A stretch of 64,000 bases of DNA, taken from NCBI GenBank assembly GCA_030431775.1, contig JAUIHW010000004.1, forward strand, positions 1 to 64,000, written 5' to 3'. A program made the translations under genes and the position numbers. Positions 9,293 through 54,406 of this stretch are shown in pieces (position 1 is the stretch's first letter; each line of letters opens with the position of its first letter). Origin of the DNA: Gammaproteobacteria bacterium. GTDB lineage: Bacteria > Pseudomonadota > Gammaproteobacteria > Pseudomonadales > JAUIET01. The notes beneath the pieces are model-generated. The model saw only the letters and a program-made list of their open reading frames with translations. It was not told the DNA's origin and ran no database searches.

Positions 9293-9347
9293 CCCTTTGC
9301 GCCGAAATTACGTTGAATAATTCACGCGCTTCCTATTTACTGTAAAT

Positions 9348-10433: not shown

Positions 10434-10444
10434 TAGCTGTTTGC

Positions 10445-37365: not shown

Positions 37366-37717
37366 GCATCGCGTCGCAGTATTGCGCCACAAAAACCAGG
37401 CCATCCACCGACTGCATGGCCTGCAATGGAGATTGTCCAGCAAAGGCCGCGTTGGCGGTATGAAACCAATGGCGGACATTCTCCCCGTCTCCTCCCATCA
37501 AGGTGTGGACTGATCGATAAATGCGTAAAACGATCGCCGCCAGGCGGCCGGGGTTTTGCTGTGGATCCAGAGAGGCTGCCTGATAACTACGGCTGAGCGT
37601 GCTTCGGTTTACTCCGAGAATGGCGGCCATCAACTGGCTGTCCACACCCATTTGTTCCTGGGCGCGTTGCAGGGCTTTGGATAACACATTTTTAGGGTCT
37701 GGTTGAGCTTGCTCCAT
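37352..37717 (-). CDS. Xre/MbcA/ParS-type antitoxin (DUF2384)
   Basis: 121 residues from MEQAQPDPKNVLSKALQRA; ATG 37744 would add nine. An N-terminal helix-turn-helix (LMAAILGVNRSTLSRSYQA, about 29-47) is followed by the toxin-binding domain VLRIYRSVHTLMGGDGENVRHWFHTANAAFAGQSPLQAMQS with the ending YCDAMRGRA. It should bind the RES toxin and repress its own promoter. Upstream, TGCTATTATTG and two TGTGCA words could be the -10 and operator, but this is weak. Confidence 0.88.
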   Translation of the reverse strand: MEQAQPDPKNVLSKALQRAQEQMGVDSQLMAAILGVNRSTLSRSYQAASLDPQQNPGRLAAIVLRIYRSVHTLMGGDGENVRHWFHTANAAFAGQSPLQAMQSVDGLVFVAQYCDAMRGRA

Positions 37718-37818
37718 CCGGTTGCCGATATGAAAAATATGCACAATAATAGCACTTAACGCTGCTTTTGCACAGGTTTATGCAACTTTTAATCGGATAT
37801 TGATCATTACGCACCGCA

Positions 37819-38952
37819 TTATTCAGCCAGGAGTTCCGCGATCTCCTGTTCCGTATAGCCAATCTCAGCCAGAATCGCCCCACTCTGCTCGCCCGGTTTT
37901 ACTGCCTGCTTTGGTGGCCCGGCTGCGGTACGGCTGAAGCGGGGCGCCGGTGCCGGCTGCCATGTGTCACCGTCGTCCAGAAATGTTCCGCGCGCCTGAT
38001 GATGCGGATGCTGGCGCACTTCCTCCATCGACAATACCGGCGCATAGCAGACATCACTGCCAGCCAATACGCTATCCCACTCGTCCCGGGTTTTCCGGCT
38101 GATCACAGCGGCCAGTTGTTGCTTCATAGCTGGCCAGTTCGCAAAGTCGTACTGCTCGGCAAGCTGCGCTGCTGCCTCATCGCCCAGCCTGCTCAGCAAC
38201 TCGGCATAAAACTGCGGCTCTATGGCGCCCAGCGAGATGTATTTGCCGTCCTTGGTTTGGTAGTAGTCATAGAACGGAGCGCCCCCATCGAGCATATTGG
38301 TGCCTCGCAGGTCACTCCAGAATTGCGCTTGAAAGGCGGCGAACACACTGCTCATCAAGGTAGCTGTGCCATCAATCATAGCGGCATCCACCACCTGGCC
38401 TTCCCCGGACGATTTGACTTCAAGCAGCGCACAAACCATGCCGAAAGCGAGCATCAGCCCACCACCCCCGAAATCCCCAACCAAGTTGAGCGGAATGCTG
38501 GGCTTCTGTCCTGCCTGCCCGATGGCATGCCCGGCACCGGCGAGCGCAATGTAATTGATATCGTGCCCGGCGGTGTGTGCCAACGGACCGTCCTGGCCCC
38601 AGCCGGTCATGCGGCCGTAAACTAGGCGTGGGTTTCTCTGCAGGCAGTCGTCCGGGCTCAGGCCCAGCTTTTCCATCACTCCAGGTCGGAAGCCTTCAAT
38701 CAAGCCGTCGGCACGGCTGATCAGGCGCTTCGCCGCAGCCAGGCCTCGTTCATTTTTCAAATCCAGGCAGATTGACTGCTTGCCGCGGTTCAGAAAATCC
38801 AGTTTAGGGTTGTCGGCCGCGCCAAAGGTGCCGCCGCCCGGGCGGTCAACGCGGATGACTCGCGCTCCCATATCCGCCAGCAGCATGCCGCAGAAAGGCG
38901 CCGGCCCCAAGCCGACAATTTCAATGATGGTGGTGCCGTGCAATGGCCCCAT
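37819..38952 (-). CDS. CaiB/BaiF CoA transferase (alpha-methylacyl-CoA racemase-like)
   Basis: A 377-residue family III CoA-transferase fold. MGPLHGTTIIEIVGLGPAPFCGMLLADMGARVIRVDRPGGG is the racemase-type N terminus, GQDGPLAHTAGHDINYIALAGA (about 133-154) carries the His-Asp pair used by alpha-methylacyl-CoA racemase, and GLIEGFRPGVMEKLGL is shared by both branches. It may epimerise branched acyl-CoAs or move CoA. It is divergent from a crotonase, suggesting a joint role in branched-chain or isoprenoid acyl-CoA breakdown. Confidence 0.92.
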   Translation of the reverse strand: MGPLHGTTIIEIVGLGPAPFCGMLLADMGARVIRVDRPGGGTFGAADNPKLDFLNRGKQSICLDLKNERGLAAAKRLISRADGLIEGFRPGVMEKLGLSPDDCLQRNPRLVYGRMTGWGQDGPLAHTAGHDINYIALAGAGHAIGQAGQKPSIPLNLVGDFGGGGLMLAFGMVCALLEVKSSGEGQVVDAAMIDGTATLMSSVFAAFQAQFWSDLRGTNMLDGGAPFYDYYQTKDGKYISLGAIEPQFYAELLSRLGDEAAAQLAEQYDFANWPAMKQQLAAVISRKTRDEWDSVLAGSDVCYAPVLSMEEVRQHPHHQARGTFLDDGDTWQPAPAPRFSRTAAGPPKQAVKPGEQSGAILAEIGYTEQEIAELLAE

Positions 38953-39091
38953 AGCCTTATCCTCTTATAAAAGAGCGATTACAACAAACAGTGGCCTGAT
39001 AAATTATGACGCGATCGCAATTTAAGCCGGTTCACTTGAACACCACAACGTGGCACATTGCCGGTCGCTGCAAATACTTAGGAACACCGAT

Positions 39092-39889
39092 ATGCCTGCC
39101 GTACGGATTGAGAAAAGCAATGCGGTCATGACCGTCACTTTGAATCGCCCCGAAAAGCGCAATGCCATTAATTGCGAAGCCATGTGCATTCTGTACGACG
39201 CCTGGCAGGAGCTCGATAAAGACGACAATCTGCGCTGCGCTATATTGACCGGTAAAGGGCCTATATTTTGCGCCGGTATGGATTTGTCGGAAATCCCGAT
39301 TATGAGCTCCGGCAAGGCGAATTCGGAATACATGCAGCGCGCGCTGGACGAACCTGAGCTGATCATGGGCGCCTGGTTGCGCACTTACCGGCCGACCAAG
39401 CCAGTGATACTTGCAGCAGAAGGGGTAGCCCGCGCCGGCGGCACGGAAATTCTACAGGGTACGGATATCCGGGTTGCCGGTGAAAGCACAGTGTTCGGCA
39501 TCACCGAAGTACAGCGCGGTCTGTTCCCAATGGCTGGCTCAGCAGTCCGTTTACGGCGACAGATTTCTTACGCGGTCGCTGCCGAAATGCTGTTGTGCGG
39601 TGACGATCTGAGCGCCCAACGTGCCTACGAACTTGGTCTGATTAACCATGTGGTGGCAGACGGCACTGCCTTAGAGAAAGCGCACAGTATTGCTGATCGC
39701 CTCTGTCGCAATGGGCCGGTTGCTGTTAGGGCGATACTGGCGACCCTGCGGGAAACGGAAGTGCTCAGCGAACAGGATGCTTACCCAGTCGAACAAGCGC
39801 ACGGCATGCAGGTAATGGCATCAAAAGACGCCATGGAGGGGCCGCGCGCTTTTCTGGAGAAGCGCGAACCGGTATTTACCGGAGAGTAA
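39092..39889 (+). CDS. Enoyl-CoA hydratase/isomerase (crotonase) family protein
   Basis: 265 residues from MPAVRIEKSNAVMTVTLNRPEKRNAIN, with AGGA upstream. The oxyanion-hole segments are LTGKGPIFCAGMDLSEIP (about 52-69) and GVARAGGTEILQGTDIRVAGE (about 112-132). The usual catalytic Glu of hydratases at the second site is not clearly placed, so the reaction (hydratase, isomerase or other) is open. It is followed after 70 bp by an amidohydrolase on the same strand. Confidence 0.92.
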   Translation: MPAVRIEKSNAVMTVTLNRPEKRNAINCEAMCILYDAWQELDKDDNLRCAILTGKGPIFCAGMDLSEIPIMSSGKANSEYMQRALDEPELIMGAWLRTYRPTKPVILAAEGVARAGGTEILQGTDIRVAGESTVFGITEVQRGLFPMAGSAVRLRRQISYAVAAEMLLCGDDLSAQRAYELGLINHVVADGTALEKAHSIADRLCRNGPVAVRAILATLRETEVLSEQDAYPVEQAHGMQVMASKDAMEGPRAFLEKREPVFTGE

Positions 39890-39959
39890 TTGGCGACGGC
39901 TTTCATGCCTGGGCTAAAAGCAGTATCGTTACACGCTTAAACAACAAGAGAGGGTCATT

Positions 39960-41837
39960 ATGGCGCGTGGCAAGAAAGGTTGGGATACGCTTATTCAGAA
40001 TGCTCTGGTGTTTGACGGTACTGGTAATGCGCCCGAGCCGTTGGATATTGCCATCAAAGACGGCAAAGTAGCCGCCAAAGGCAGCGCACTGCCCGGCTAT
40101 GCCGCCAGCGAGGTGATTGATGCCGACGGCCTCTGGCTGATGCCGGGGCTACTGGACATTCATACGCACCTTGACCTGGAGGTTGATCTCGACCCACGGC
40201 TGCCCGAGGTCGTACGCCACGGCACAACAACCGTGCTGATGGGAAACTGCAGCCTGGGCACCAGCTTCGGCCAACAGATCGAAGGCGAACAGAACCCGAT
40301 TGTTGACTGTTTTACCCGGGTGGAGAACATCCCCAAACCGGTGCTCAACAAATGCGTTGAAGCCGTCTCCTGGAACAGCCCTGGCGAATACCTGGACCAT
40401 TTTGACAATGTTCCGCTGGGCCCAAACGTGGCGGCTTTGCTGCCGCATTCCATGCTTCGTGTCGAAGTCATGGGCTTGCAGGACAGTATCAGCCGCGACC
40501 CGACCGAAGCGGAATTACAGCGAATGTGCGATATTCTCGACGAGGCGATGGAACAGGGCTATGTGGGCATGAGCACCGACGGCTTACCGTTTCATTTTCT
40601 GGCCAATGAACCGCATACTGACAAACGCATACCCACTCAATTTGCAAGCTTCGGAGAGCTGAAACGCCTGCTCAACGTGGTTCGCGAACGTGATCGGGTC
40701 TGGCAGACGACACCAATTATCGAAAATCGCGCCAAAGCTTTCGTTTATTTTGCACTGACCAGCGGCCGTCTGTTCGGCAAGACCCTGAAAACCTCCGCTC
40801 TGTCGGTCATGGAGTTCGTCCTGATGCCCAAGGCCAGTGGCGGCTTCCTGAACTTTGCCAAACTGATGAACAGTAAGCTGTTCAAGGGGAATTTGCATTT
40901 TCAGTCTTTAGCCACCAATTTCCGCATCTGGTCTGATGGAATTGTCAGCCCTCTGTTTGAAGAGATGGATTCCACTTGCCGGTTGATTGCCAAGGAATAC
41001 GACGACGTGGAAGGCCGGCGCAAGTTGTTGAACGACCCGGAGTTTATTGAGCAATTCCGACGCGATTGGCACCATGGACGACGCGGCAATAACCTCGCCC
41101 ACTTCAAAACCAAAATGGGCCTGCCCGACACCATGGTGATTCGCGATCTGTTTCGCATGGTGTTTGATCGTGCTCCAGTCGAGATCTGGAACGGCAACAC
41201 CTTGCAGGAAGTCATGGACCGCCTGGAGCGTTACCAACACGGCGACAAAGAGGCCGCCAGAGACAGTAAAGAACAGGCTGAATTCGATAAGTTCCCGAAC
41301 CCAATCGAAGACGATGCCAATTTTATGCTGCATCTGCTACGCGAGTATGACCGTAACTTCCGCTACTGGGTTGACGTAGGCAATACCACGCGCTCAGTGG
41401 TCAAGGAACTTATGCTGCACGAACAAGCCCTGCCCGGCTTTTCCGATTCCGGCGCACACATCACGAACATGGCATTCTTTGACGTTAACCTGATGGCACT
41501 GCAGCTGGCCCAGGAGGATGGTCAGGACACTGTCGCCCGGGTCGTGCGCCGTCTAACCCGCGAGCCAGCAGAGTTCTTCGGACTGGACACGGGCCGCCTG
41601 GACATCGGCTCACAGGCCGACATCGCCATCATCAACCCTGACGCCCTGGCCAGCTACGATACCAATGCCAATCGCCAGCTGATCTACCGCGAGCTGTTTG
41701 AGCATGAGCAAATGGTGAACCGCTCTGATGGCGTGGTCTCCAGGGTGCTGATCAACGGCGAGACGGTCTGGCAGGACAACGATTTCACAGCGATTCTCGG
41801 TGAGAAAAAGCTTGGGCGGGCGTTACGCGCGCATTAA
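39960..41837 (+). CDS. Amidohydrolase, N-acyl-D-amino-acid deacylase-like
   Basis: A 625-residue metal-dependent amidohydrolase. The metal-binding HTHLDLEVD (about 64-72) follows the strand PGLLDIHTH. GTTTVLMGNCSLG and MLRVEVMGLQD match the D-aminoacylase subgroup, SDSGAHITNMAF (about 498-509) supplies the late Asp, and DLDTGRLDIGSQADIAIINPD is the C-terminal sandwich. Relatives hydrolyse N-acyl-D-amino acids, but members next to CoA genes may act on other amides. AGAGGG precedes the ATG. Confidence 0.9.
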   Translation: MARGKKGWDTLIQNALVFDGTGNAPEPLDIAIKDGKVAAKGSALPGYAASEVIDADGLWLMPGLLDIHTHLDLEVDLDPRLPEVVRHGTTTVLMGNCSLGTSFGQQIEGEQNPIVDCFTRVENIPKPVLNKCVEAVSWNSPGEYLDHFDNVPLGPNVAALLPHSMLRVEVMGLQDSISRDPTEAELQRMCDILDEAMEQGYVGMSTDGLPFHFLANEPHTDKRIPTQFASFGELKRLLNVVRERDRVWQTTPIIENRAKAFVYFALTSGRLFGKTLKTSALSVMEFVLMPKASGGFLNFAKLMNSKLFKGNLHFQSLATNFRIWSDGIVSPLFEEMDSTCRLIAKEYDDVEGRRKLLNDPEFIEQFRRDWHHGRRGNNLAHFKTKMGLPDTMVIRDLFRMVFDRAPVEIWNGNTLQEVMDRLERYQHGDKEAARDSKEQAEFDKFPNPIEDDANFMLHLLREYDRNFRYWVDVGNTTRSVVKELMLHEQALPGFSDSGAHITNMAFFDVNLMALQLAQEDGQDTVARVVRRLTREPAEFFGLDTGRLDIGSQADIAIINPDALASYDTNANRQLIYRELFEHEQMVNRSDGVVSRVLINGETVWQDNDFTAILGEKKLGRALRAH

Positions 41838-41952
41838 TCGTAAAAAACCGCCATATCGAACAATAAACATACGCCAACCGTGGCGAGCGTCAATTCTTTG
41901 ACTACGCTTATAAGATAAGCAAAAGCATTGCTAAGCCATTGAAAAGCAATAA

Positions 41953-41977
41953 CTATTGTGTGTTTTTTGCACAATAG
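41953..41977. promoter_or_regulatory. Inverted repeat upstream of the polysaccharide-type operon
   Basis: CTATTGTG and CACAATAG are perfect 8-bp arms separated by 9 bp in an AT-rich stretch 115 bp before the ATG at 42093. It could be a dimeric-regulator operator or a small hairpin. The rest of the 255-bp gap (41838-42092) shows no terminator or open frame I can support. Confidence 0.4.
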
Positions 41978-42092
41978 CAAAGTCTAGTGGTTACCGGTCA
42001 GGGAGAGATCAACACGTACAGTAAACCTTAAGATTATTGCCTGCTTGGCCGCTTACGGCCTGCGCAGTATCAGCAAGCCGGGCCGTTGTTTG

Positions 42093-43493
42093 ATGGATGC
42101 CAATCTGCAATATGAACCCCACCAGCGGGTTCTATATCTTAGCATCGGAAAACAATCCGACCGTCCGGCGTGGTCGCCAACCGTAATGACCTTGCAGTGT
42201 GATCGCTTTGAGCTGCAGACCGTACTGGAGCACCTGGACCCAAGCCTGGACGCAATCCTTGTCAATGCAGACGACCAAAGCATGGACACTGCGCTGTGGC
42301 AGCTTAGAAGTGCCGAGCCAAGCTGGTCATTGCCAATCTTTGTTGCCAAGCCACCGACTGCCCTCGCCGCCTGCCTGGCGGATGGAATCACTGCTGACAT
42401 TAACGAAGCCTGCACCAAGGCCGAGACAATTCGGCGACGCTTGGCACTGTTACCCGCAGCAGCAATGACCTACCCCTCTGCCGAGTACAAACTGCTGGCC
42501 TTTTTATTCAGTCGCGAGGGCTTAAAGCTTTCTCCAACCCTGCAAACTGACCAGGCAAAGCTCTGGGTGTACCCTTTACCGGAAGCTCTAGCTGCAAACT
42601 CCAAACAACAACCGGACATCACACAACTTGAGCTGGACGGTTTGCTCACTCCAGTTGGATTGCTTGACCGCCTGCGTGTCTGCAAGCACTGCGAGTCCGC
42701 CGCACTGAGCTTCATCGATACCTGCGCGAACTGCGACAGTATTGATATCGAACAAGCGCGTTTCTTTCATTGCTTTACCTGTGGCCATGTCGCCCCTGAG
42801 TCGAACTTCGCCCGCCGCGAGGGACTGATCTGCCCGCAATGCCAAACGCATTTTCGGCACATTGGAGTCGATTACGATAGGCCACTTGAGCAGTACATCT
42901 GCAACAGTTGCAGCGCTACGTTTGTCGAGGGTAATACTGTGGCCCGCTGCCTCAGCTGCAAGAAAAATTCTGCACCTGAAGAGCTGCGGGATCATCGGGT
43001 CCAACACTACGCCATCACCGCCCACGCTGAGGCTGCGCTTCAACAGGGGCGGTTACGATCCCCGGAACCGTTGGCCACGACCGGACAGTTCGCCGCACCC
43101 GCGTACTTTCATCAAATGCTGGACTGGCTGCTGAACCTTGTTCAACGCTACGACTCAGAAGCTTTCTGCCTGCTGTCAATCGCTGTGGTACAACCACCTG
43201 GGCAAAACGACGCTGTACCCAGGGAACACAACGATGCGTTTTTCAAACGGGTTGCCGAGCTTATCCGGGACACCGATCTTATTCACAGAGTCAGTCAGGA
43301 CTCGGTCTGGATACTGCTGCCAAAAACGCCAGCCGGGTCGCTGAAAGCCTTTGTCGACCAGGTACGCAAACTGGCCATTCAACTTCGTCACTTCAAAGAT
43401 CAAGACCTGTATTTTAGCAGCCTGTGCATTCCAGAAGACATTCCTCCCACTCACTCTGCAGACACCGTACTGCAGTTCCTGCAACAGGGCTGA
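42093..43493 (+). CDS. TackOD1-type zinc-ribbon protein with degenerate GGDEF domain
   Basis: 466 residues from ATG 42093 (TTG 42045 also possible). The N-terminal 100 residues look like a pseudo-receiver alpha/beta fold. Residues 197-289 contain six CxxC pairs (CKHC, CANC, CFTC, CPQC, CNSC, CLSC) with FTCGHVAPES and RHIGVDYDRP, the pattern I recognise as the TackOD1 metal-binding domain. The C-terminal part resembles a GGDEF domain, but the signature is SQDSV (about 401-405, in HRVSQDSVWILLPKT), so it should not make c-di-GMP. It starts the operon with the GT2 synthase, 10 bp ahead, and is probably its regulator (inference). Confidence 0.82.
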   Translation: MDANLQYEPHQRVLYLSIGKQSDRPAWSPTVMTLQCDRFELQTVLEHLDPSLDAILVNADDQSMDTALWQLRSAEPSWSLPIFVAKPPTALAACLADGITADINEACTKAETIRRRLALLPAAAMTYPSAEYKLLAFLFSREGLKLSPTLQTDQAKLWVYPLPEALAANSKQQPDITQLELDGLLTPVGLLDRLRVCKHCESAALSFIDTCANCDSIDIEQARFFHCFTCGHVAPESNFARREGLICPQCQTHFRHIGVDYDRPLEQYICNSCSATFVEGNTVARCLSCKKNSAPEELRDHRVQHYAITAHAEAALQQGRLRSPEPLATTGQFAAPAYFHQMLDWLLNLVQRYDSEAFCLLSIAVVQPPGQNDAVPREHNDAFFKRVAELIRDTDLIHRVSQDSVWILLPKTPAGSLKAFVDQVRKLAIQLRHFKDQDLYFSSLCIPEDIPPTHSADTVLQFLQQG

Positions 43494-43503
43494 GGAGCAC
43501 AGA

Positions 43504-44841
43504 ATGTACGAGCTGCTTCTTGAAACACTGACCACTCTGGAAATCTATTTCAGCCGCCTGGCGACCGATGATGTGCTCACTTATGTTGCCGAGCTGGCAC
43601 CTTTTGTTGTGGCATTCGAAGTACCACTGTATCTGCTGATTCTCATCGGTGTTTTCAAGCACTACCATCGGCGTTGCCATACACCTCCCGGCCCACTCAC
43701 TTACTCTCCATCAGTGAGTTGCATCGTGACTTGTTACTCGGAAGGCAAAGACGTTCAGACCACCATAAGCTCTATGGCCAACCAGTTGTATGCCGGCAAA
43801 ATCGAGATACTGGCCATGATCGATGGTGCTGTGAGCAATAAAGATACCTATGATGCAGCGATGGACATGCTGCCGCAAATTAGCTGCATGCCGCAACGCT
43901 CTCTGCGTGTGATACCCAAGTGGCTAAGAGGTGGCAGAGTGTCGTCCGAAAATACTGGCCTGGCTATCGCTCAGGGCGAAATCGTCATGGTGCTGGATGG
44001 CGATACCTCGTTCGATAACGACATGGTCGCCAACGCCGTACAACATTTTGCTGACCCTTGTGTTGCGGCGGTCTCCGGCAACCTTCGCTTACGAAATACC
44101 AAAGACGGTCTGGCTGCGAAGTTGCAGGCCATCGAATACATGATGTCTATCGGTACCAGCAAGGTTGGTTTGAGTGAATTCAATGTGGTCAACAACATAT
44201 CTGGGGCCTTCGGCATCTTTCGCACCCGAATCATGCGCCATATCGGCGGGTGGGATTCCGGGACGGCCGAAGATCTGGACCTCACATTGCGCCTCAAAAA
44301 GTACTTTGCTCGCCATCCTCATATGCGCATTGTGTTTGAATACTATGCGCTAGGCCACACCGACGGGCCGGGAACTTTTAAGGACTTCTTCAAGCAGCGC
44401 CATCGATGGGATGGAGACCTCTACTATCTGTACATCCTGAAACACGCGTTTGGCCTGAAACCAGCTTTAATGGGCTGGCGTAATTTTCTTGCGCTTGTCT
44501 GGATGGGCCTGTTTTTCCAGCTGATCATGCCATTCATCATTGTTGCCTATACATTATATTTAGGCATGACCGCTCCGTTGCCGGCGATGTTGGCGGTACT
44601 TGGACTGGTCTACCTGTTTTACTTCTTTTGTAGTCTGGCACTCTACTTGACCGGTGTCTTTTTGCTGTCTGATCGTAAAACAGAAGACCTTAAACTCATC
44701 TGGTGCCTGCCCTTTGTACCTTTATTCACTTTTGCCACACGCTGCTGGTCAGCCTTTGCCTGCGTGGATGAAATAGTTCGCCACATTCACCTGGATTCCA
44801 GCATGGCGCCCTGGTGGGTATTGAGGAAAACCAAGTTTTGA
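43504..44841 (+). CDS. Processive membrane glycosyltransferase, GT2 family
   Basis: 445 residues. An N-terminal membrane segment lies at about 31-51, and the GT-A domain holds VSCIVTCYSEGKD, the DxD motif DGD (165-167), TAED (254-257) and the processivity motif QRHRW (298-302) shared by cellulose, hyaluronan and PNAG synthases. C-terminal helices (about 328-390 and 398-420) form the transmembrane channel. There is no PilZ domain. It would polymerise and translocate a polysaccharide across the inner membrane. Its stop overlaps the TTG start of the next gene by 4 bp. Confidence 0.9.
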   Translation: MYELLLETLTTLEIYFSRLATDDVLTYVAELAPFVVAFEVPLYLLILIGVFKHYHRRCHTPPGPLTYSPSVSCIVTCYSEGKDVQTTISSMANQLYAGKIEILAMIDGAVSNKDTYDAAMDMLPQISCMPQRSLRVIPKWLRGGRVSSENTGLAIAQGEIVMVLDGDTSFDNDMVANAVQHFADPCVAAVSGNLRLRNTKDGLAAKLQAIEYMMSIGTSKVGLSEFNVVNNISGAFGIFRTRIMRHIGGWDSGTAEDLDLTLRLKKYFARHPHMRIVFEYYALGHTDGPGTFKDFFKQRHRWDGDLYYLYILKHAFGLKPALMGWRNFLALVWMGLFFQLIMPFIIVAYTLYLGMTAPLPAMLAVLGLVYLFYFFCSLALYLTGVFLLSDRKTEDLKLIWCLPFVPLFTFATRCWSAFACVDEIVRHIHLDSSMAPWWVLRKTKF

Positions 44842-47216
44842 ACAGACGCACTTACAGCAAGCTTTTTGCACTGCTGCTGGTAGTCGGTAGCTTCAACAGC
44901 TTCGCGAGGGGGCCTTCCCTCACTTTACCCGAATTGGAGGCAATGCTGGACACCTCGCGGCATGTTGAACTGGCTACTGCGGAAATCGAGGAAAGATTGT
45001 ATCTTCTCAAAAGAGAGCGACAGCGTCGTGGCTTGAAACTGTTCGCCAATGGAGGCTATGCCGATGTTTCTGAAGTGGTTACGGATGACCTCAAACGCAA
45101 CTATCAGCGGCAGTACCTGACACTTGGTTTAAGCTACCCCTTGTTCGGCACCAATGCCGCAGAAAGAGCTGCCATTGTTGAAGCTGAATACGGTGTAACT
45201 GCCAGCGAAATGCAACGTCGTTCGCTGCGTAGTAAGGCACTCGCAACGCTGCGACGAAGTTATATCGACTACTGGATATCACATAGGCGTCTCAGTACCT
45301 CTCGTGAGTTTTTGCAAAGCGAGCCAGAAACCCATCATTGGCTGACTGAGAGAACCGCAAGCGGATATCTGCTGGAGGCCGATCGGCTGGAATTCATGAG
45401 TGGATTTGATCTGGCGCGACGAGCCGTTGCCAGTGACGAGGAGCTAATGGATCGAACCCACGGAACTATGGCACTGCTAACAAAGGATTCATTACCAAAG
45501 TTCTTGCCAGAAAGCCCGGCGCTCTCCGAAATCTGCCTGGACAAAGAGGAATTACTGCACAAGGCTATTGAGCTGGATCCGCAATTGCAGCGGCTTAAAT
45601 ACCGTAAGGCGACCTTAAGGCAGCTCAAGAATTCCGCCAGCGAAATCGAAGGAAACCTGAACCTGAGCACAACGGTCGGCCGAGACGAACCTTCTTCACT
45701 CAACGATAGCGGGCTGGCGCTGAGCTTCAACGTTCGTATGCCGTTGGAGTTCCTCGGCGCCCGCCACAATATGAAAGCCGCACGCAACGCCAGATTGCAT
45801 CAGGTAAACCTGGAGATTGACCGCCGACGCTACGAGCTTGCCAACGAAATCGACAGCGCTGTTAATCGCTATCGAACTGCCGTGGAAAATCTCAGTTTTG
45901 CAGAAACCCGATTCGCTGCGGCCTTGGAATCGGTTCGTGAGCGTCAGCTAAAAGCGGCCAGGCTACCAGGTGATCGGCTGGAACAGCTTCAACAAGCGCG
46001 TTTCAGCAGCTATCGCACTGCGATTGATCTGATCGATTCAGAAAGCTTACTGCTTAAATCTAAAGTAGACATACTGCATTATTCCGCGCACCGCTGCGGC
46101 TCAGCAGAAAAGCCAAGCACACCGACTAGAGACGCGGCGCCACTAATCACAGCGGCACTGCCTTCCAATGGGGTTGAAAACACTAAGTCTTGGGCCAGCA
46201 CCTTAAACTTGCGGCCGCTAAAATCACGGCCAGTCCTGAGAGCGAATGCCGCTGCTGCACCCCATTTGGACCATCCTATTGACACGAAGCGAAGTGCTCG
46301 GGTCAGCTATGGTGTTCTGCCATCCAGAGCCGTAAAACACACCCGCGTTCGGTTCGCGACGCCTACACCGGACAATTCCGACTCGACCGTATTGGGTCCA
46401 CAGGCCGCAGCTCCCGAGCGCACGAGCAATATCGGCATCCACAATAATTCATTCCGACGCGGCGTCTATTTATGGAGAAGTCGAAAACTGCTCTCATCAA
46501 AAGACAAACGCGAAGAATTCTTGCACTTGGCCGGGAACTATGGCATCAACCGGGTGCTGCTGTCACTGGATGGCTACCAGCTAAAGCAAATCGGTGTTGA
46601 ACGTCAGCATCAGCAGATACTGAGTTTTGTGAAAGCAGCTGATGCGCTGGGGATCAGCGTGGAACTGCTACTCGGAGAGCACAGCTGGTTATTACCACGC
46701 CATCGGTCGAAACTTCTGGAGATAGTGCGGCAAGTACAGGCCTTGCCATTTAAAGGTTTGCATCTGGATATCGAGCCCAGTGCATTTGATGAAGAGTTTT
46801 TTGATCGCGCGAAAATACTGGAGAACCTCGCTGATACCGTGGACGAAGTACAGCAAGTAAACGCCCTGCCTTTGAGTCTAAGCCTGCATTTTCGTGACCT
46901 TTCAGAAAACGCTCCATACTGCCTGGGTTGTAGACTTAGCAAAGACAAGCTCGCCGAAGTCATACTCATGATTTATGTTAGCAACCCTGAACGAACACAA
47001 GAAATAGCCAAGCAGGTTGCCGCTAACTATCCGGACTTACGCTTTAGCGTCGCACAAAGTGTGGAGCCTATCCTGGATGCGACTGAAAGCCACGCTACTG
47101 TTGATCTGGCGACCATAAATCGGCGATTGGAGCACCTGCAACAGTCCCTGGAACCCAGACAATTCAACTCGATCGTTCTGCAATCCTGGTCTGACCTTAG
47201 GGAAGTGCGACGATGA
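44838..47216 (+). CDS. TolC-like outer-membrane protein fused to a TIM-barrel-like domain
   Basis: About 792 residues from TTG 44838, chosen for GGAAA upstream and because it begins a clean signal peptide (MNRRTYSKLFALLLVVGSFNSFA); GTG 44814 is an alternative. Residues 25-430 are TolC-like: LPELEAMLD, long heptad helices, YLTLGLSYPLFG and ALSFNVRMPLEFLGARHN as barrel strands. A low-complexity linker (about 440-535) leads to a 255-residue alpha/beta domain with RRGVYLWRSRKLL, INRVLLSLDGYQ and LHLDIEP (about 641-647), like glycoside-hydrolase-type barrels. I infer a secretion duct with a polymer-binding or trimming domain. It overlaps the GT2 and adaptor genes by 4 bp each. Confidence 0.8.
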   Translation: MNRRTYSKLFALLLVVGSFNSFARGPSLTLPELEAMLDTSRHVELATAEIEERLYLLKRERQRRGLKLFANGGYADVSEVVTDDLKRNYQRQYLTLGLSYPLFGTNAAERAAIVEAEYGVTASEMQRRSLRSKALATLRRSYIDYWISHRRLSTSREFLQSEPETHHWLTERTASGYLLEADRLEFMSGFDLARRAVASDEELMDRTHGTMALLTKDSLPKFLPESPALSEICLDKEELLHKAIELDPQLQRLKYRKATLRQLKNSASEIEGNLNLSTTVGRDEPSSLNDSGLALSFNVRMPLEFLGARHNMKAARNARLHQVNLEIDRRRYELANEIDSAVNRYRTAVENLSFAETRFAAALESVRERQLKAARLPGDRLEQLQQARFSSYRTAIDLIDSESLLLKSKVDILHYSAHRCGSAEKPSTPTRDAAPLITAALPSNGVENTKSWASTLNLRPLKSRPVLRANAAAAPHLDHPIDTKRSARVSYGVLPSRAVKHTRVRFATPTPDNSDSTVLGPQAAAPERTSNIGIHNNSFRRGVYLWRSRKLLSSKDKREEFLHLAGNYGINRVLLSLDGYQLKQIGVERQHQQILSFVKAADALGISVELLLGEHSWLLPRHRSKLLEIVRQVQALPFKGLHLDIEPSAFDEEFFDRAKILENLADTVDEVQQVNALPLSLSLHFRDLSENAPYCLGCRLSKDKLAEVILMIYVSNPERTQEIAKQVAANYPDLRFSVAQSVEPILDATESHATVDLATINRRLEHLQQSLEPRQFNSIVLQSWSDLREVRR

Positions 47217-48289
47217 AGGTTACATTCAGCTCTGTGCGCAAGCTGGAACCCGATGCAGAGCACGGCCTTAAAATACCCTACGCGCCCGCAAAACGGGTCG
47301 CATCCAAGATGCGCTGGTATCTGGTCCTGCTGATTGTCTGCTCTCCCCTGCTGTTTGTTGTCTACAACATGCTCATGCCTGCGATATTCACCAGCGAACC
47401 AGGTTATATCAGCCTGGAGAAGCTGGAGCTGAACAGCGACACATCAGGAAGGGTCGCGCGCATCGATGTGGCCGTTGGCGAGGATGTTCATAAAGGTATG
47501 GTGATCGGCAAAATCGTCGATGCCGATCTCGAGTCTCGTATTCGTCAGGTTCAGGCGGAACTCAACGCACATCAGGCACTGATGGTGACCGGTCGCGATG
47601 CTAACCACCGTAAGACTCTGCAAGAGCAGTTGGATCTTGCGAGGTCTAACAGTGAGTTTTATCGGCAACAATATGCGGCCATGAGAACTTTGTTTGCCCG
47701 ACGCTCGGCCACACGGGCTGATTTAAACAACGCACAGACAGCCCATCAACGTGCCCAGCTTACCGTGCTTGAATTGGAAGAGAGCCTGACGGAAAGCGTT
47801 AAAAGGCCAACGGGCAATAGCGTAGAAATCGAGCGCCTGAAAGCAGAATTGAGCTCTCTACACGATCGGAGAACGCGAATGCTGGTCCGCAGCCCCGCGC
47901 AGGGTCGCATACTCGATGTCTTTGTTCGCGAAGACCAGATTGTTCGCCAGGGAGACCAACTGGCACTCTTAGGCAAACCAAGCAAAGCAAAAGTCATCGC
48001 ATATCTGGACCCGAAGTACGCCAAGTTCGCGCAAATTGGCCAACCCGCCCGGATCGAATTACCCGACGGACAGAACTTGTCAGCCCACATCATCCAGTTA
48101 CCGGAGGTAACCCACCGCCTGCCATCAGAATTTGCCCGCCCACTTGGCCTTCGAACCATGAAAATTCTTGCGCACCTCGAGTTTGATGAGCCATTGCCGG
48201 TTGCTCGCCAGGTGGAGGGCTTACCAGTTACTGTCCGTTTCCCTTTCCGTGTGCGAAGGGCTCAAGCGGAGCTTGCGTCGAATAACTGA
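47213..48289 (+). CDS. HlyD-type membrane fusion protein
   Basis: 358 residues. A cytoplasmic N terminus of about 32 residues is followed by one membrane helix (WYLVLLIVCSPLLFVVYNML), then the split lipoyl domain (LELNSDTSGRVARIDVAVGEDVHKGMVIGKIVD and VRSPAQGRILDVFVREDQIVRQGDQLAL) around a coiled-coil hairpin (about 110-215). It would span the periplasm and dock the TolC-like duct to the synthase. Its ATG overlaps the previous stop (ATGA). A HlyD-like partner for a GT2 synthase recalls BgsB of the mixed-linkage glucan system and Alg44. Confidence 0.9.
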   Translation: MKVTFSSVRKLEPDAEHGLKIPYAPAKRVASKMRWYLVLLIVCSPLLFVVYNMLMPAIFTSEPGYISLEKLELNSDTSGRVARIDVAVGEDVHKGMVIGKIVDADLESRIRQVQAELNAHQALMVTGRDANHRKTLQEQLDLARSNSEFYRQQYAAMRTLFARRSATRADLNNAQTAHQRAQLTVLELEESLTESVKRPTGNSVEIERLKAELSSLHDRRTRMLVRSPAQGRILDVFVREDQIVRQGDQLALLGKPSKAKVIAYLDPKYAKFAQIGQPARIELPDGQNLSAHIIQLPEVTHRLPSEFARPLGLRTMKILAHLEFDEPLPVARQVEGLPVTVRFPFRVRRAQAELASNN

Positions 48290-48309
48290 AACAATAGGAA
48301 AGCGATACC

Positions 48310-48732
48310 ATGAGCAATTCACTGAATTTTCTTGCATTTGCATGGCTGTTGGCCACGGCTATCACCGCAGCCGCCCATCCCGAGGCAGACTATCTGGCGG
48401 ATGCTTTTCATCCGCAAAAATCAACCCCGGTGCACGAACTTCCTGGAGAGCTGTTTGCCTTGCAACTGATCGCAGTTTCCAGTCGGGAGCAAATTGAAAA
48501 CTATGCCGAGCAGCACGATTTGTACGACCTCGTTGCGGTGCCCATTCAACAACATGGGAAACGACTTTATGTGCTGATCGCCGGTTTCTATCAGCACGAA
48601 CAAGACGCCAGGCGTGCATTGGAACTGCTACCACAAGAGGTGCGCACGCAATCACCCTGGGTTCGACAGTTGGCCGGCTTACAGGCACTGATGTCCAGCA
48701 ACGATGCGGACATTTATGCGGCCTCCGACTGA
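48310..48732 (+). CDS. SPOR-domain-like periplasmic protein
   Basis: A 140-residue protein with signal peptide MSNSLNFLAFAWLLATAITAAA. From about residue 50, LFALQLIAVSSREQIENYAEQHDL...KRLYVLIAGFYQHEQDARRALELLPQEVR has the beta-alpha-beta repeat of SPOR domains, which bind denuded peptidoglycan at division sites. Most other SPOR proteins are septal, so it may position the export machine. It is last in the operon, 20 bp after the adaptor gene. Confidence 0.8.
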   Translation: MSNSLNFLAFAWLLATAITAAAHPEADYLADAFHPQKSTPVHELPGELFALQLIAVSSREQIENYAEQHDLYDLVAVPIQQHGKRLYVLIAGFYQHEQDARRALELLPQEVRTQSPWVRQLAGLQALMSSNDADIYAASD

Positions 48733-48758
48733 CGCCTTCTGGAAACAAACTCCGGCCA

Positions 48759-49211
48759 TCATTCGTCCAGAAACGACATAAAGTCTGGTACATTAAACTT
48801 CCAGCTGCGCTGCTCGACGCGCTCGGCAATACGCCAGCCATCCGCGGTGCGCACATATTTGTCGTTGTACCACAAGCCTAACATCCAGGTAGTACTACCG
48901 TCGGGCGTTTTCATCTCCTGTGGGTTGAAGCACATGATGTGTCCGTACGCCACATCACCGTCCAGCTTAACCTGCATGTTCGCGTTCAGGTGCTGAGTAT
49001 AGGGAAAAGCGCCCATTGCTCCGTGCAGAAATTCGATGGTCTCGGCGCGGTTTCCCACCGAACCACCGAACACACTGTAATCTATGTGGGCATCCTCGGT
49101 GAACACCGTGTCGAGTTCATCGAAGGCCTTACGGTCGATAATATCGGAGTAATGCCAGATAAGGTCTTCGATCTCAATTCGGTCGGAAATTTCCTGTAGG
49201 GACAATGGCAT
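48759..49211 (-). CDS. SnoaL/NTF2-like family protein
   Basis: 150 residues from MPLSLQEISDRIEIEDLIWHYSDIIDRKAFDELDTVFTEDAHIDY, preceded by AGGAAAG. This is the opening of the SnoaL_4 group, which includes scytalone-dehydratase-like and steroid isomerase-like enzymes with a cone-shaped pocket. Asp/His residues (D37-type, H-I-D-Y) could be catalytic, but no reaction can be named. It is divergent from the acetoacetate-decarboxylase-like gene across 191 bp. Confidence 0.87.
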   Translation of the reverse strand: MPLSLQEISDRIEIEDLIWHYSDIIDRKAFDELDTVFTEDAHIDYSVFGGSVGNRAETIEFLHGAMGAFPYTQHLNANMQVKLDGDVAYGHIMCFNPQEMKTPDGSTTWMLGLWYNDKYVRTADGWRIAERVEQRSWKFNVPDFMSFLDE

Positions 49212-49402
49212 AGCGCTTTCCTCTGAGTGACTTATCGTTAACTTGGAATGTTCAGATACCCTTGGGTAGCATGAGTAACATCCTATGATGCCGATCGCCA
49301 TGGTCAAGCAATTAGGCTTGAGCTCGGGTTACGCTTCGTTCACCGAAGGCCTGGCGCGGATTGATAATTTAACAAATAGCTTCATTGCAGCGAGGTACAA
49401 AT

Positions 49403-50173
49403 ATGTCATCACCCCAGGGCAACACCGGCGATATTGTCAACTGGCCAATGCTCAAAGTGGTGTATCGCACGGATAAGAGCAATATTTCCAAGTTGCTCCC
49501 GCCGGGCATAGAAGCCAGCGCCGAGCCGAACGTAAACGTCACCATTTATAACTTCCCCGTTCCTGACGAACCTGAGTACGGCATAGTTATGTCAGTTGAC
49601 GCAGACTACAACGGCATCCAGGGCGAGTATGTGCTGGGCTACGGTATAGACCAGGAGTCGGCCATTTTCGTCAGCCAAAACACCAACGGCCAGCCCAAAT
49701 TTCCGTGCGATACCACCTATTATCGAATGGGTGAGCGCGTCGTCGCCCGCTGCAGCCACCAGGGCTATACCTTCGTCAGCTTTGAAGGCGTCTCCAGCGG
49801 AGTAAACGAGCCGAAGGACGAGTTTGAACAGCACGAATGGTGGATCAAGGTGTCACGAAAAGCTAACGTCGTGCCCATCCCGGAATACGATTTCCCTCCA
49901 CACGTCGTGCACGTGCGCAGCAAATACGGCACAGCCCACCGTGAAACGGTGGATGGACAGCTGGTACTGCATGAAAGTCCATGGGACCCTATCGCAACGC
50001 TGTTGCCGATCCGCGAGCAGGTTTCCGCGCATCTCTGGTGGCCGATATTCCTCGATCGCGAAATCAAGCTGGCCGGTAAGCTGGACCCTGAGGCATTCCT
50101 GCCGCACCTGGACGTAATATCCGGGTCACGCTGGCCCGGTCAGAATGGCGGGCCAATTCGATCAGCCGGATAA
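49403..50173 (+). CDS. Acetoacetate decarboxylase (ADC) family protein
   Basis: 256 residues from MSSPQGNTGDIVNWPMLKVVYRTDKSNISKLLPPGIEAS. ADC-family landmarks are LLPPGIE, NVTIYNFPVPDEPEYGIVMSVDADYNGIQGEYVLGYGID and NTNGQPKFPCDTTYY. Members far from true acetoacetate decarboxylases use the same beta-cone fold for aldol or dehydration chemistry. It is the first gene of a run with two DUF35 proteins, two thiolase-like proteins and a crotonase. Confidence 0.88.
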   Translation: MSSPQGNTGDIVNWPMLKVVYRTDKSNISKLLPPGIEASAEPNVNVTIYNFPVPDEPEYGIVMSVDADYNGIQGEYVLGYGIDQESAIFVSQNTNGQPKFPCDTTYYRMGERVVARCSHQGYTFVSFEGVSSGVNEPKDEFEQHEWWIKVSRKANVVPIPEYDFPPHVVHVRSKYGTAHRETVDGQLVLHESPWDPIATLLPIREQVSAHLWWPIFLDREIKLAGKLDPEAFLPHLDVISGSRWPGQNGGPIRSAG

Positions 50174-50238
50174 ACCGCTCTTTTCCTGCCTGGTCATGGC
50201 GCATGGCCGGCCGCATTGACTTTTGATAGGAGAACGCT

Positions 50239-50685
50239 TTGAGTTCAGCCAATCTATTACAAGAGGACTTTCAGGTCCACTACACCTATACCCGATCAAC
50301 CGGCCCGGTTATTGGCGATTTTCTGACAGCATTGCGCGACAGGAAACAGATTCTCGGTTCGAAAACCAGCGATGGCCGGGTGCTCGTGCCACCGATGGAA
50401 TTTGACCCAGCAACAAAAGCAGCCTTGACTGAGCTTGTGGAAGTGGCCGATGAAGGAACGGTTTCCAGCTTTTGCTGGGTCAAACAACCAACTCCGCACC
50501 ACCACATTCAACAGCCATTTGCCTTCGCGATGATCCGCCTGGATGGCGCCGACAGCGATTTTATTCACATGGTGGATTGCGGTTCTGAAGACAAACTTCA
50601 AAACGGCGCCCGAGTTAAAGCCCAGTGGGCTGACGACCGCCAGGGCGCGATGACCGATATACGCTGTTTCAAACTGGTGGAGTGA
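50239..50685 (+). CDS. DUF35 OB-fold protein lacking its zinc-ribbon cysteines
   Basis: 148 residues from TTG 50239 with AGGAGA upstream. The layout is that of the DUF35 proteins that pair with thiolase-like enzymes: a rubredoxin-like N-terminal hairpin and a C-terminal OB fold (EVADEGTVSSFCWVKQ...FAMIRLDGADSDFIHMVD). In the hairpin the four zinc ligands are gone (ILGSKTSDGRVLVPPMEFDP has no Cys). It probably serves as a structural or acyl-CoA-presenting partner (inference). Confidence 0.85.
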   Translation: MSSANLLQEDFQVHYTYTRSTGPVIGDFLTALRDRKQILGSKTSDGRVLVPPMEFDPATKAALTELVEVADEGTVSSFCWVKQPTPHHHIQQPFAFAMIRLDGADSDFIHMVDCGSEDKLQNGARVKAQWADDRQGAMTDIRCFKLVE

Positions 50686-50690
50686 GCAGG

Positions 50691-51200
50691 ATGGCCGAGA
50701 AACAAGACCCTAATGCTGAGCGCGTCAACATTATGTATTCGCCGGTGAATCTGGATTACAGATTCACCGCGTCGGACCACACCACCCGCTTTCTGAACTC
50801 CATCAAGAACGGGCAGTTTATTGGAAGCCAGGTGAAGCCAGGTTCACCGGTCTACGTGCCGCCACGTCCTATTTGCCCGGAAACCGGTCTGCAAGCCAAT
50901 GAATTTGTCGATCTGCCAGATACCGGAATCGTGCACTGGTTCACTATTGTCCACATTCCCATTCCGGACAATCCGATTAAGCCGCCTTTTGTGGTGGCCA
51001 ATATCCTGCTGGATGGTGCCGATATTACTTTCCTGCATCTGATTAGCGGCTGTGCAAATGAAAACATAGAGATTGGTATGCGGGTCAAGGCCGTGTGGAA
51101 GCCAGAAGATAAGCGCTCGCTTTCCCCTGCCAATGTTCGTTTCTTTGCGCCGGAAGACAAAGCCGATGCGCTCACCATTGAACTGGCCGACCAGGAGTAA
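50691..51200 (+). CDS. DUF35 OB-fold protein, second copy
   Basis: 169 residues from ATG 50691; GTG 50682, overlapping the preceding stop, is the alternative start. FIGSQVKPGSPVYVPPRPICPETG is the rubredoxin-like hairpin with only one of four zinc Cys left, and DTGIVHWFTIVHIPIP...PFVVANILLDGADITFLHLISG is the OB fold. It is a diverged tandem relative of the preceding gene. In known systems such a protein binds one thiolase-like partner; two copies here match two thiolase-like genes. Confidence 0.87.
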   Translation: MAEKQDPNAERVNIMYSPVNLDYRFTASDHTTRFLNSIKNGQFIGSQVKPGSPVYVPPRPICPETGLQANEFVDLPDTGIVHWFTIVHIPIPDNPIKPPFVVANILLDGADITFLHLISGCANENIEIGMRVKAVWKPEDKRSLSPANVRFFAPEDKADALTIELADQE

Positions 51201-51204
51201 TGCC

Positions 51205-52263
51205 ATGCGTGATGTCGCTATCGTAAATTATCGTCAGACAGTACCTGTTAGAGATTCTGGCCCTGTCAATGAACTGCAGATGCTCGAGCAAGTGATTCAG
51301 GGTGTCATCAACGATACCGGAGTTGCCCTTGAGGATTTTGATTTTGTCTGCTCCGGAAGTTGTGACTATCTCGCAGGCGCAGCGTTCGCTTTCGTTGAAG
51401 GTGTGGAAGCTGTTGGTCCCTTCCCTCCCATTAAGGAATCCCATGTCGAAATGGATGGAGCGTGGGCATTGTATGAAGCCATTTTGAAAATTCGCACCGG
51501 AGAAGCAGACTCGGCCCTGGTCTATGGCTTCGGAAAATCGTCCCCCGGCTATTTGCGCTCCGTCATGAGCTTGCAGCTTGACCCGTATTACCTGACTCCT
51601 CTGTGGCTTGACAGCATTAGTGCCGCCGCCCTGCAGGCTGCCCAATGCCTTAACAGCGGCACGCTGACCGAAGCGGATATGGCGGCTGTGGTAGCCCGCA
51701 GCCGGGCGAACGCTAAAAGCATCGCTGCCAGCCAACTGAAAGGCGACTACAGCGTTGCGGAGCTGCTGGCCGAACCGACCATGGTGTCTCCGCTGCGCAA
51801 GCACGATTGCGCCCCGATTTCAGATGGCGCCTCAGCAATGATTGTAGCGTCACCAGAGAAAGCAAAAGAATGGTGTAGTCAACCTGTCATGGTCCGCGGA
51901 ATAGACCATCGTATTGAAAGCTCCATGCCGACTCTGCGCGATTTAACCCGTTCAGAATCAACCAGCATTGCCGGCAAAGCCGCCGGAATTGCGGGTGTTG
52001 ATGTACAGTTTGCCGAATTGCACGCACCGTTCAGCCATCAGGAAATCCTGTTACAACGGGCGCTTGAACTTGACGACAAGGTGGATCTTAATCCCTCCGG
52101 TGGCGCGCTTGCCGCCAACGTAATGATGGCCGCAGGGCTTGACCGGATTGGTCACGCCGCGAGCATGATCCAGGCAGGACGGTACACATGCGGCGTTGCC
52201 CACGCCACCTCAGGAGCCTGCCTGCAACAGAATCTAGTCGCAGTATTGGAGGCTGCCCAATGA
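51205..52263 (+). CDS. Thiolase-like protein (Ltp/SCP-x type) without the nucleophilic Cys
   Basis: 352 residues from MRDVAIVNYRQTVPVRDSGPVNELQM. The fold is thiolase: ISDGASAMIVAS (about 209-220), FAELHAPFSHQEILL and NPSGGALAANVMMAAGLDRI (about 294-313). Where thiolases carry the reactive Cys it reads SHVEMDGAWALYEA, so thiolysis by the classic route is not expected. Ltp2-type relatives instead cleave side chains by retro-aldol chemistry with a DUF35 partner. It is tightly packed between a DUF35 gene and a second thiolase-like gene. Confidence 0.88.
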   Translation: MRDVAIVNYRQTVPVRDSGPVNELQMLEQVIQGVINDTGVALEDFDFVCSGSCDYLAGAAFAFVEGVEAVGPFPPIKESHVEMDGAWALYEAILKIRTGEADSALVYGFGKSSPGYLRSVMSLQLDPYYLTPLWLDSISAAALQAAQCLNSGTLTEADMAAVVARSRANAKSIAASQLKGDYSVAELLAEPTMVSPLRKHDCAPISDGASAMIVASPEKAKEWCSQPVMVRGIDHRIESSMPTLRDLTRSESTSIAGKAAGIAGVDVQFAELHAPFSHQEILLQRALELDDKVDLNPSGGALAANVMMAAGLDRIGHAASMIQAGRYTCGVAHATSGACLQQNLVAVLEAAQ

Positions 52264-54297: not shown

Positions 54298-54406
54298 TCG
54301 GATCGCTTCCATTCCGCTAGAATTGCCCAATTGCTTCGCTCACTGACCGCCGATTGTGATATTCGGTGCATGCGGCGAAAATTGTATTGTTGAGAGTATC
54401 CGAGCA

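Follow-up and report, generated by a model that had tools for sequence, protein, structure and literature searches.

A conserved TackOD1 regulator, GT2 synthase, HlyD-type adaptor and TolC-fold/barrel gene set as a candidate polysaccharide synthesis and secretion system

The locus lies at positions 42093-48732 of a 64,000-nucleotide stretch of gammaproteobacterial DNA (assembly GCA_030431775.1, contig JAUIHW010000004.1, positions 1 to 64,000, forward strand), referred to below as the window. Five plus-strand open reading frames (ORFs) were confirmed, spaced in order by 10 bp, a 4-bp overlap, a 4-bp overlap and 20 bp, as a preliminary description of the sequence had read them. The identities given there also held in Pfam scans. 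The first protein matched TackOD1 (PF18551; 191.4 bits, cut-off 32), the second (445 aa) several GT2 glycosyltransferase families above cut-off, the third OEP (44.4 bits, cut-off 22), the fourth HlyD_3 (45.6 bits, cut-off 22.2) and the fifth SPOR (39.5 bits, cut-off 21). GGDEF scored below its cut-off in the first protein (15.2 against 23.8 bits), consistent with a degenerate domain. The OEP protein is TolC-like and fused to a TIM barrel; its ORF starts with TTG at 44838, with an in-frame GTG at 44814. The first four genes are a conserved system consisting of a TackOD1 regulator, a GT2, a TolC-fold/barrel protein and a HlyD-type adaptor, and the SPOR gene is a lineage-specific accessory outside this unit. 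Features are listed in Table 1.

Loci were collected by GT2 similarity. A first scan gave 48, many from metagenome-assembled genomes (MAGs) that are possibly mis-binned; by their record titles, from which phylum names were taken, they are labelled Pseudomonadota, Thermodesulfobacteriota, Synergistota, Acidobacteriota, Planctomycetota, Myxococcota, Campylobacterota, Bacteroidota and Bacillota. Whole-genome samples, each including its centre genome, were then scanned with the GT2 at E up to 1e-100. GT2-positive genomes numbered 10/369 in the window's class (own genome included), 7/300 in the order around Diaphorobacter nitroreducens, 2/247 in the phylum around Desulfopila, 29/149 in the phylum around a Synergistales MAG (the Synergistota sample) and 18/93 in the family of Legionella erythra. 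In total 106 loci were read (48 from the first scan, an Aeromonas plasmid and 57 sample regions) and 12 duplicates were dropped, yielding 94 distinct loci; the matched genomes G935, G957 and G1136 were left out.

TackOD1 was found upstream of GT2 in 92 of the 94 loci, and in the other two the contig begins inside GT2. The TackOD1 profile matched at E up to 0.01 in 45/45 members, and TackOD1 was present in all GT2-positive genomes of the window's class (10/10) and of the Synergistota sample (29/29). HlyD was present in 91/94 loci; of the other three, two are truncated and no full HlyD exists at L051. GT2 and the TolC-like gene occurred together in 67/94 loci, so the lack of co-occurrence that would have refuted the preliminary description was not observed. 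The barrel was present in 65/94; two loci with OEP and no barrel, L038 and L040, are not at contig ends. OEP or barrel followed GT2 in a window-like order in 41/94 loci, and the order OEP-HlyD-TackOD1-GT2 was seen in 28/94. All gaps between neighbouring operon ORFs were at most 150 bp in 87/94. Recurrence of this linkage at 94 distinct loci, and of such an operon in 16 of 17 genomes with a strong TackOD1 match (below), shows that it is not due to chance. The five genes had been described as one unit; four of them recur, and a profile search of the window and the 48 loci found a SPOR homologue only in the window and L009 (1/48 other loci). At L021 a 389-aa ORF (9271-10437) is inserted between GT2 and OEP; it is absent from the close relative L022 and may therefore be a mobile element.

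Table 1. Positions of the genes, domains and motifs in the window
Feature	Position	Strand	Basis
TackOD1 regulator gene	42093-43493	+	Pfam, structure model
TackOD1 zinc-ribbon domain	42477-43016	+	Pfam
Degenerate GGDEF domain	about 43083-43490	+	fold matches of residues about 331-466
RxxD site (RDTD in window protein)	43266-43277	+	alignment
GT2 processive-type synthase gene	43504-44841	+	Pfam, motifs, profile comparison with solved relatives
DGD motif	43996-44004	+	GT2 sequence
TAED motif	44263-44274	+	GT2 sequence
QRHRW motif	44395-44409	+	GT2 sequence
TolC-fold/TIM-barrel fusion gene	44838-47216	+	Pfam, AlphaFold model, conservation across 66 sequences
TolC-fold part (residues about 27-418)	about 44916-46091	+	Pfam, AlphaFold model
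Disordered linker (residues 422-536)	about 46101-46445	+	predicted local distance difference test (pLDDT) <50
C-terminal TIM barrel	about 46446-47213	+	AlphaFold model
Conserved D-x-E of barrel	46767-46775	+	alignment
HlyD-type periplasmic adaptor gene	47213-48289	+	Pfam, EmrA relative, hydropathy
Single N-terminal hydrophobic stretch of adaptor	about 47321-47377	+	hydropathy
SPOR-domain protein gene, likely signal peptide	48310-48732	+	Pfam, hydropathy
SPOR domain	about 48448-48669	+	Pfam

The conserved genes probably encode a self-contained, sometimes mobile, gated polysaccharide synthesis-and-secretion system with a HlyD-TolC exit. An inner-membrane GT2 would polymerise an activated sugar (a UDP-hexose or UDP-hexosamine is probable, and the galactose (Gal)/N-acetylgalactosamine (GalNAc) series the leading guess) and thread the chain into the periplasm. 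The adaptor would connect the GT2 with a TolC-fold trimer serving as the exit for the chain, and on the periplasmic side the barrel tethered to the trimer may trim or release the chain or clear peptidoglycan. The TackOD1 protein, in the cytosol, would gate the synthase: its dead GGDEF domain would sense cyclic di-GMP (c-di-GMP) through the RxxD site and the TackOD1 domain would pass the signal to the GT2. An exopolysaccharide synthesis and export system had been proposed in the preliminary description, and a conserved unit of synthase plus TolC-type export survives from it; a universal TolC part and a core SPOR protein do not. The RxxD site, the epimerase neighbours, the conserved barrel motifs and the pairing of TackOD1 with GT2 beyond this family (all below) are additions to that description.

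The OEP part was matched to TolC/OprJ-type structures with Z up to 24.1 over 386 residues (root-mean-square deviation, rmsd, 3.5). In TolC both ends of the OEP fold are periplasmic, so the barrel should by analogy be periplasmic. Barrel residues D644 and E646 were conserved in 66/66 sequences, M711 in 65/65 and Y713 in 63/64; we take the D-x-E after strand 4 and the M-x-Y after strand 6 to resemble motifs of glycoside hydrolase (GH) family 18. One of 32 barrel members matched GH18 (PF00704), weakly (E 0.062), so that Pfam gives no confirmation of this family. Comparison of the barrel with PgaB as single sequences in hhalign was not significant, and its short best local match, at the M-x-Y strand, was not counted as evidence. 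Synthase systems usually carry a hydrolase or lyase for their polymer. The barrel might instead cut peptidoglycan, clearing the path of the duct and leaving the polymer alone, with the SPOR protein of the window operon marking denuded sites. The top fold match is indeed Cwp19 (Z 19.4), described as a lytic transglycosylase in the available text of PMC6016235. A GH18 chitinase (Z 18.2; rmsd 3.7 over 231 residues), GH1 enzymes (17.8) and the PgaB C-terminal domain (17.4) follow within about 2 Z units and other GH families score similarly, so close together that the fold cannot decide the substrate. Given also the rarity of the SPOR gene, action on peptidoglycan is held to be somewhat unlikely.

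The model of the TackOD1 protein (pLDDT 88) comprises an N-terminal alpha/beta domain, the TackOD1 domain and a GGDEF fold, in that order. The GGDEF fold matched 6khu with Z 16.3 over 128 residues (rmsd 2.4). The N-terminal domain appears REC-like by eye in the model; no Pfam match to Response_reg was found in this protein, and the fold search hardly covered its N-terminus. A GGDEF or GGEEF motif was seen in 0/93 members and RxxD was kept in 84/91, in 5/5 intact proteins of a divergent type (type II, below) and in both gammaproteobacterial plasmid proteins aligned. A degenerate GGDEF active site combined with RxxD is, at the level of sequence, the pattern of PelD/BcsE-type receptors. To our knowledge TackOD1 is not part of the PelD or BcsE systems. 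PelD senses c-di-GMP for Pel secretion with such a domain (PMC7112168), and BcsE, with degenerate GGDEF and REC domains, is the c-di-GMP receptor of enterobacterial cellulose secretion (PMC7439463). Both resemble the window regulator in having a degenerate GGDEF domain with RxxD in an exopolysaccharide system. The window's own genome held 25 GGDEF matches, which were counted in favour of the proposed system, and c-di-GMP is likely to be the signal in the window's family. The polymer might be secreted as proposed and TackOD1 sense zinc, redox state or phosphorylation, the dead GGDEF domain being structural only. This possibility draws on 12 invariant cysteines in the TackOD1 domain (alignment of members), on relatives from Roseibium and Palleronia annotated as response regulators, and on the loss of RxxD in several clades. 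Retention of RxxD in so many members despite the lost active-site motif argues against it, and we think it unlikely. In the Legionellaceae sample, TackOD1 proteins of about 758 aa were seen in two genomes, at L179:7120-9396 (the one scanned, with two TackOD1 stretches) and at L178:10671-12947.

The DGD, TAED and QRHRW motifs named in the preliminary description are present in the GT2, and D165, D167, D257, Q298, R301 and W302 were invariant in 49 homologues, with E256 nearly so. Hydrophobic stretches flank the GT domain on both sides (hydropathy). Hyaluronan (E 4e-13), cellulose and chitin synthases were among the solved relatives matched by the GT2 profile, and comparison with PgaC in hhalign gave E 3.3e-28. 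In a quick tree, with references on long branches and used only for the separateness of the family and for a clade without OEP (below), the family formed one long-stemmed group apart from PgaC, BcsA, NodC and three others. Identity as a PNAG (poly-N-acetylglucosamine) synthase was rejected (PgaC/IcaA equivalog TIGR03937, 127 bits against a cut-off of 422.3), as were NodC (60.8 bits, cut-off 550) and a BcsA/XcsA cellulose synthase (no PilZ in the GT2, Pfam scan). Distant GT2s were found in 15 phage records, all <30% identical among the 10 matches listed, and a DNA-level plasmid search returned three records with short GT2 matches only. The product could be a short glycolipid, an oligosaccharide or a surface-linked glycan exported by the HlyD and TolC-like proteins. 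Identities to named relatives are modest (about 29-34% to pgaC and 23-25% to nodC matches), and these relatives include NodC, whose product is a short chain; the hyaluronan synthase match, however, spans from before the GT domain to past QxxRW (query 42-375), and the QRxRW motif and a tethered glycosidase-like barrel suit polymer systems. A short product is therefore considered improbable.

The best solved relative of the adaptor was EmrA (E 7.6e-26). Ahead of its membrane stretch lies a conserved segment, in which M1 and R28 are invariant and Y23 and W35 reach at least 90%; this suggests contact of the adaptor N-terminus with the synthase or the regulator. That the HlyD and TolC-like proteins are parts of an efflux or type I pump whose inner-membrane transporter is unlinked, the GT2 being a co-transcribed passenger, is hardly credible: EmrA works with an MFS (major facilitator superfamily) pump and five Legionellaceae-type loci have a neighbour that reads like a transporter, but GT2 and HlyD are linked in 91/94 loci, and in 24 of 25 loci without OEP, and the window unit has no transporter gene. 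A Pfam scan of the five proteins encoded in the unit detected no inner-membrane transporter of the ABC, MFS or RND type, and membership of type I secretion or tripartite efflux was rejected for the window unit on this ground; the systematic scan covered this unit only.

Genes of the epimerase-type short-chain dehydrogenase/reductase (SDR) family adjoined the operon in 16/94 loci, or 72 per Mb of adjacent zone (1300-bp zones; gap <300 bp or gene inside the operon). Further out, 812 kb contained three epimerase-type matches (3.7 per Mb); two of these were weak, at about 122 bits, and the other was L025, at 596 bp. At L180 TackOD1 and GT2 are separated by the gene, at L016 its assignment comes from a profile match alone, and at L055 it was counted because the ORF lies upstream, is divergent and overlaps only an over-long ORF. 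Thirteen genes were scanned for GalE (12 adjoining and L025; L016, L026, L032 and L167 were left out). Eight passed the cut-off (L020, L021, L022, L030, L046, L048, L049 and L055). Since the arrangements differ between clades, epimerase genes are likely to have joined the operon several times independently, which suggests a Gal- or GalNAc-type substrate in some hosts.

The pairing of TackOD1 with GT2 extends beyond this family. In the 369-genome class sample TackOD1 matched at E up to 0.001 in 27 genomes, above cut-off in 19 and strongly (at least 175 bits) in 17. The 17 comprise 10 GT2-positive genomes, six with a divergent version and one orphan. In the divergent version (type II) a protein of roughly 690 aa that ends in the barrel is accompanied by HlyD, TackOD1 and a GT2 with 28-30% identity to that of the window; five of these systems are complete and L192 is in pieces. 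No Pfam family matched the divergent barrel proteins of L188 and L190. The orphan (L187:6624-8015) has no GT2 beside it, and its neighbours read as phosphate regulation and uptake. Genome G293 holds a second TackOD1 (L195:5914-7263) with no GT2 profile match nearby and a neighbour that reads like a PAS-type sensor. In the Synergistota sample 29 of 30 strong-TackOD1 genomes carried the GT2, and the thirtieth is a 3.1-kb contig holding part of the operon.

A tblastn search with the TackOD1 protein matched 17 plasmid records, of which 12 were examined; two further ones are of the same plasmid type or species. GT2 followed TackOD1 in 12/12 plasmids, directly in 10, and HlyD-profile matches followed in 11/12. 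In an Alisedimentitalea plasmid a 113-aa ORF stands between TackOD1 and GT2. A plasmid of the haloarchaeon Halorussus halophilus (L203:5950-8911) carries a stand-alone TackOD1, DUF2334, then GT2, with no HlyD or OEP profile match at the locus. All four genes are on the 29-kb mobilizable plasmid pKAM329_3 of Aeromonas caviae, and two Rhodobacteraceae plasmids have the order TackOD1, GT2, HlyD, galE. On a Methylocystis iwaonis plasmid, TackOD1 and GT2 are followed in turn by genes for a protein matching the HlyD profile, one matching the barrel profile (35 bits; motifs GLHFDVEP and MSY) and a TolC family protein. That barrel and TolC are separate neighbours here supports a functional connection between the two parts that the window protein joins. 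The Roseibium TackOD1 protein contains a Response_reg domain. Two alphaproteobacterial plasmid loci (L202:4927-9144 and L206:4110-8184) carry a TackOD1 protein annotated as a response regulator, then GT2 and a match to the HlyD profile; genes for Hpt or kinase proteins lie close by. The near-constant TackOD1-GT2 pairing is the most surprising element of the system. Tentatively, at somewhat below even chances, TackOD1 may be a general actuator of GT2 synthases, bacterial and archaeal alike, that accepts different inputs: c-di-GMP by way of a dead GGDEF domain, phosphorylation by way of a true REC domain, or no input at all. The window would then hold the most complete form, c-di-GMP-gated and exporting a GalNAc- or Gal-type polymer through a TolC-glycosidase duct.

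Several observations weigh against the proposed secretion system or parts of it. Neither OEP nor barrel profile matched in 25/94 loci, and the TolC-like gene is thus not the constant part it had been taken for; these loci make up one GT2 clade of 24 (Shimodaira-Hasegawa-like approximate likelihood ratio test, SH-aLRT, 96), which includes Legionellaceae, and L051. In favour of the system, OEP matches were present elsewhere in the genome in 16/16 tested genomes without an operon OEP. QxxRW occurs in some non-processive GT2s too. The transporter-like neighbour in the five related Legionellaceae-type loci reads like a drug/metabolite transporter (c2; neighbour families were compared in L009-L056), and in Methylocystis an annotated set of HlyD, outer-membrane (OM) and MFS genes lies nearby on the other strand. 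RxxD was missing in 7/91 members (L020, L026, L030, L032, L035, L038 and L040) and in 7/7 alignable alphaproteobacterial plasmid relatives, an eighth consisting of gaps only, so c-di-GMP sensing is not universal. The TackOD1 protein and BcsE, compared as single sequences in hhalign, were not significantly similar (E 0.18), in which the window regulator differs from the known receptor; the short best local match, at the RxxD motif, was not counted as evidence. Five of the 13 scanned epimerase-type genes (L025, L035, L045, L047 and L180) did not pass the GalE cut-off, pointing to epimerases of several kinds, and the window locus has no epimerase neighbour.

No description of this gene set as a system was found in the open-licence PMC literature. 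The available part of a synthase-operon survey (PMC7112194) contains no mention in its main text of TolC, HlyD, TackOD1 or efflux, and glycosyltransferase and cellulose are absent from the first 300,000 of 747,799 characters of a tripartite-pump review (PMC8277102). The preliminary description had gone further, holding that no synthase system uses a TolC exit and that only Alg44 and the Bgs system are known to have HlyD-like partners. Neither statement is supported in view of the cyanobacterial XcsA-XcsB-TolC cellulose route, with XcsB as the HlyD-like protein, a 2018 proposal by Maeda that is called unvalidated in the available text of a review (PMC12430437). This system therefore varies a known principle. 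The gene content is alike (GT2, HlyD-like adaptor, TolC-type exit), but XcsA carries PilZ, of which the window GT2 has no match, TolC is unlinked in cyanobacteria, and the available text mentions neither TackOD1 nor a TolC-fused barrel (PMC12430437). The Bgs system for mixed-linkage glucan likewise pairs a GT2 (BgsA) with a protein bearing an HlyD-like domain (BgsB) and is activated by c-di-GMP (PMC9495663); unlike the system here it is a two-gene operon with c-di-GMP bound at the BgsA C-terminus, and the portion of that paper available mentions no TackOD1 or TolC. No GT2 match to BgsA was found in pSymB 395000-440000. PgaABCD of E. coli has a related GT2 and a hydrolase domain (PgaB), but its exit is the porin PgaA and its operon has no HlyD or TackOD1 gene. 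Archaeal TackOD1 proteins share the Pfam domain in REC-TackOD1 layouts; their function is called obscure, and no link to GT2, such as the window family has, is stated in the available text (PMC5847659).

If the reading as a secretion system is correct, a one-cassette TolC-type exit would join the few known Gram-negative routes for synthase-made polysaccharides and would offer an operon-encoded, testable counterpart to the cyanobacterial tripartite idea. TackOD1 would gain a concrete candidate role. As the cassette occurs in several phyla and on a mobilizable plasmid, it may represent a transferable trait of biofilms or the cell surface, one that could have escaped notice behind annotations of its parts as efflux proteins and a diguanylate cyclase (as on the Aeromonas plasmid).

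A compositional island was rejected (operon GC content 0.51-0.55, surroundings 0.52-0.59). In 38000-52000 of the window no Rfam match reached the gathering score. Promoter and terminator scans were discarded as evidence: the first found 2 against 4.7 expected and the second 10 against 7.0 expected (standard deviation 3.2). By eye, the operon is flanked by genes reading as catabolic. Downstream, at 54356-58638, a separate pair reads as an HlyD-like adaptor (weak adaptor-profile match) and a 1029-aa RND-type pump, and two minus-strand genes at 36628-37744 resemble, by eye, a RES-Xre type toxin-antitoxin pair.

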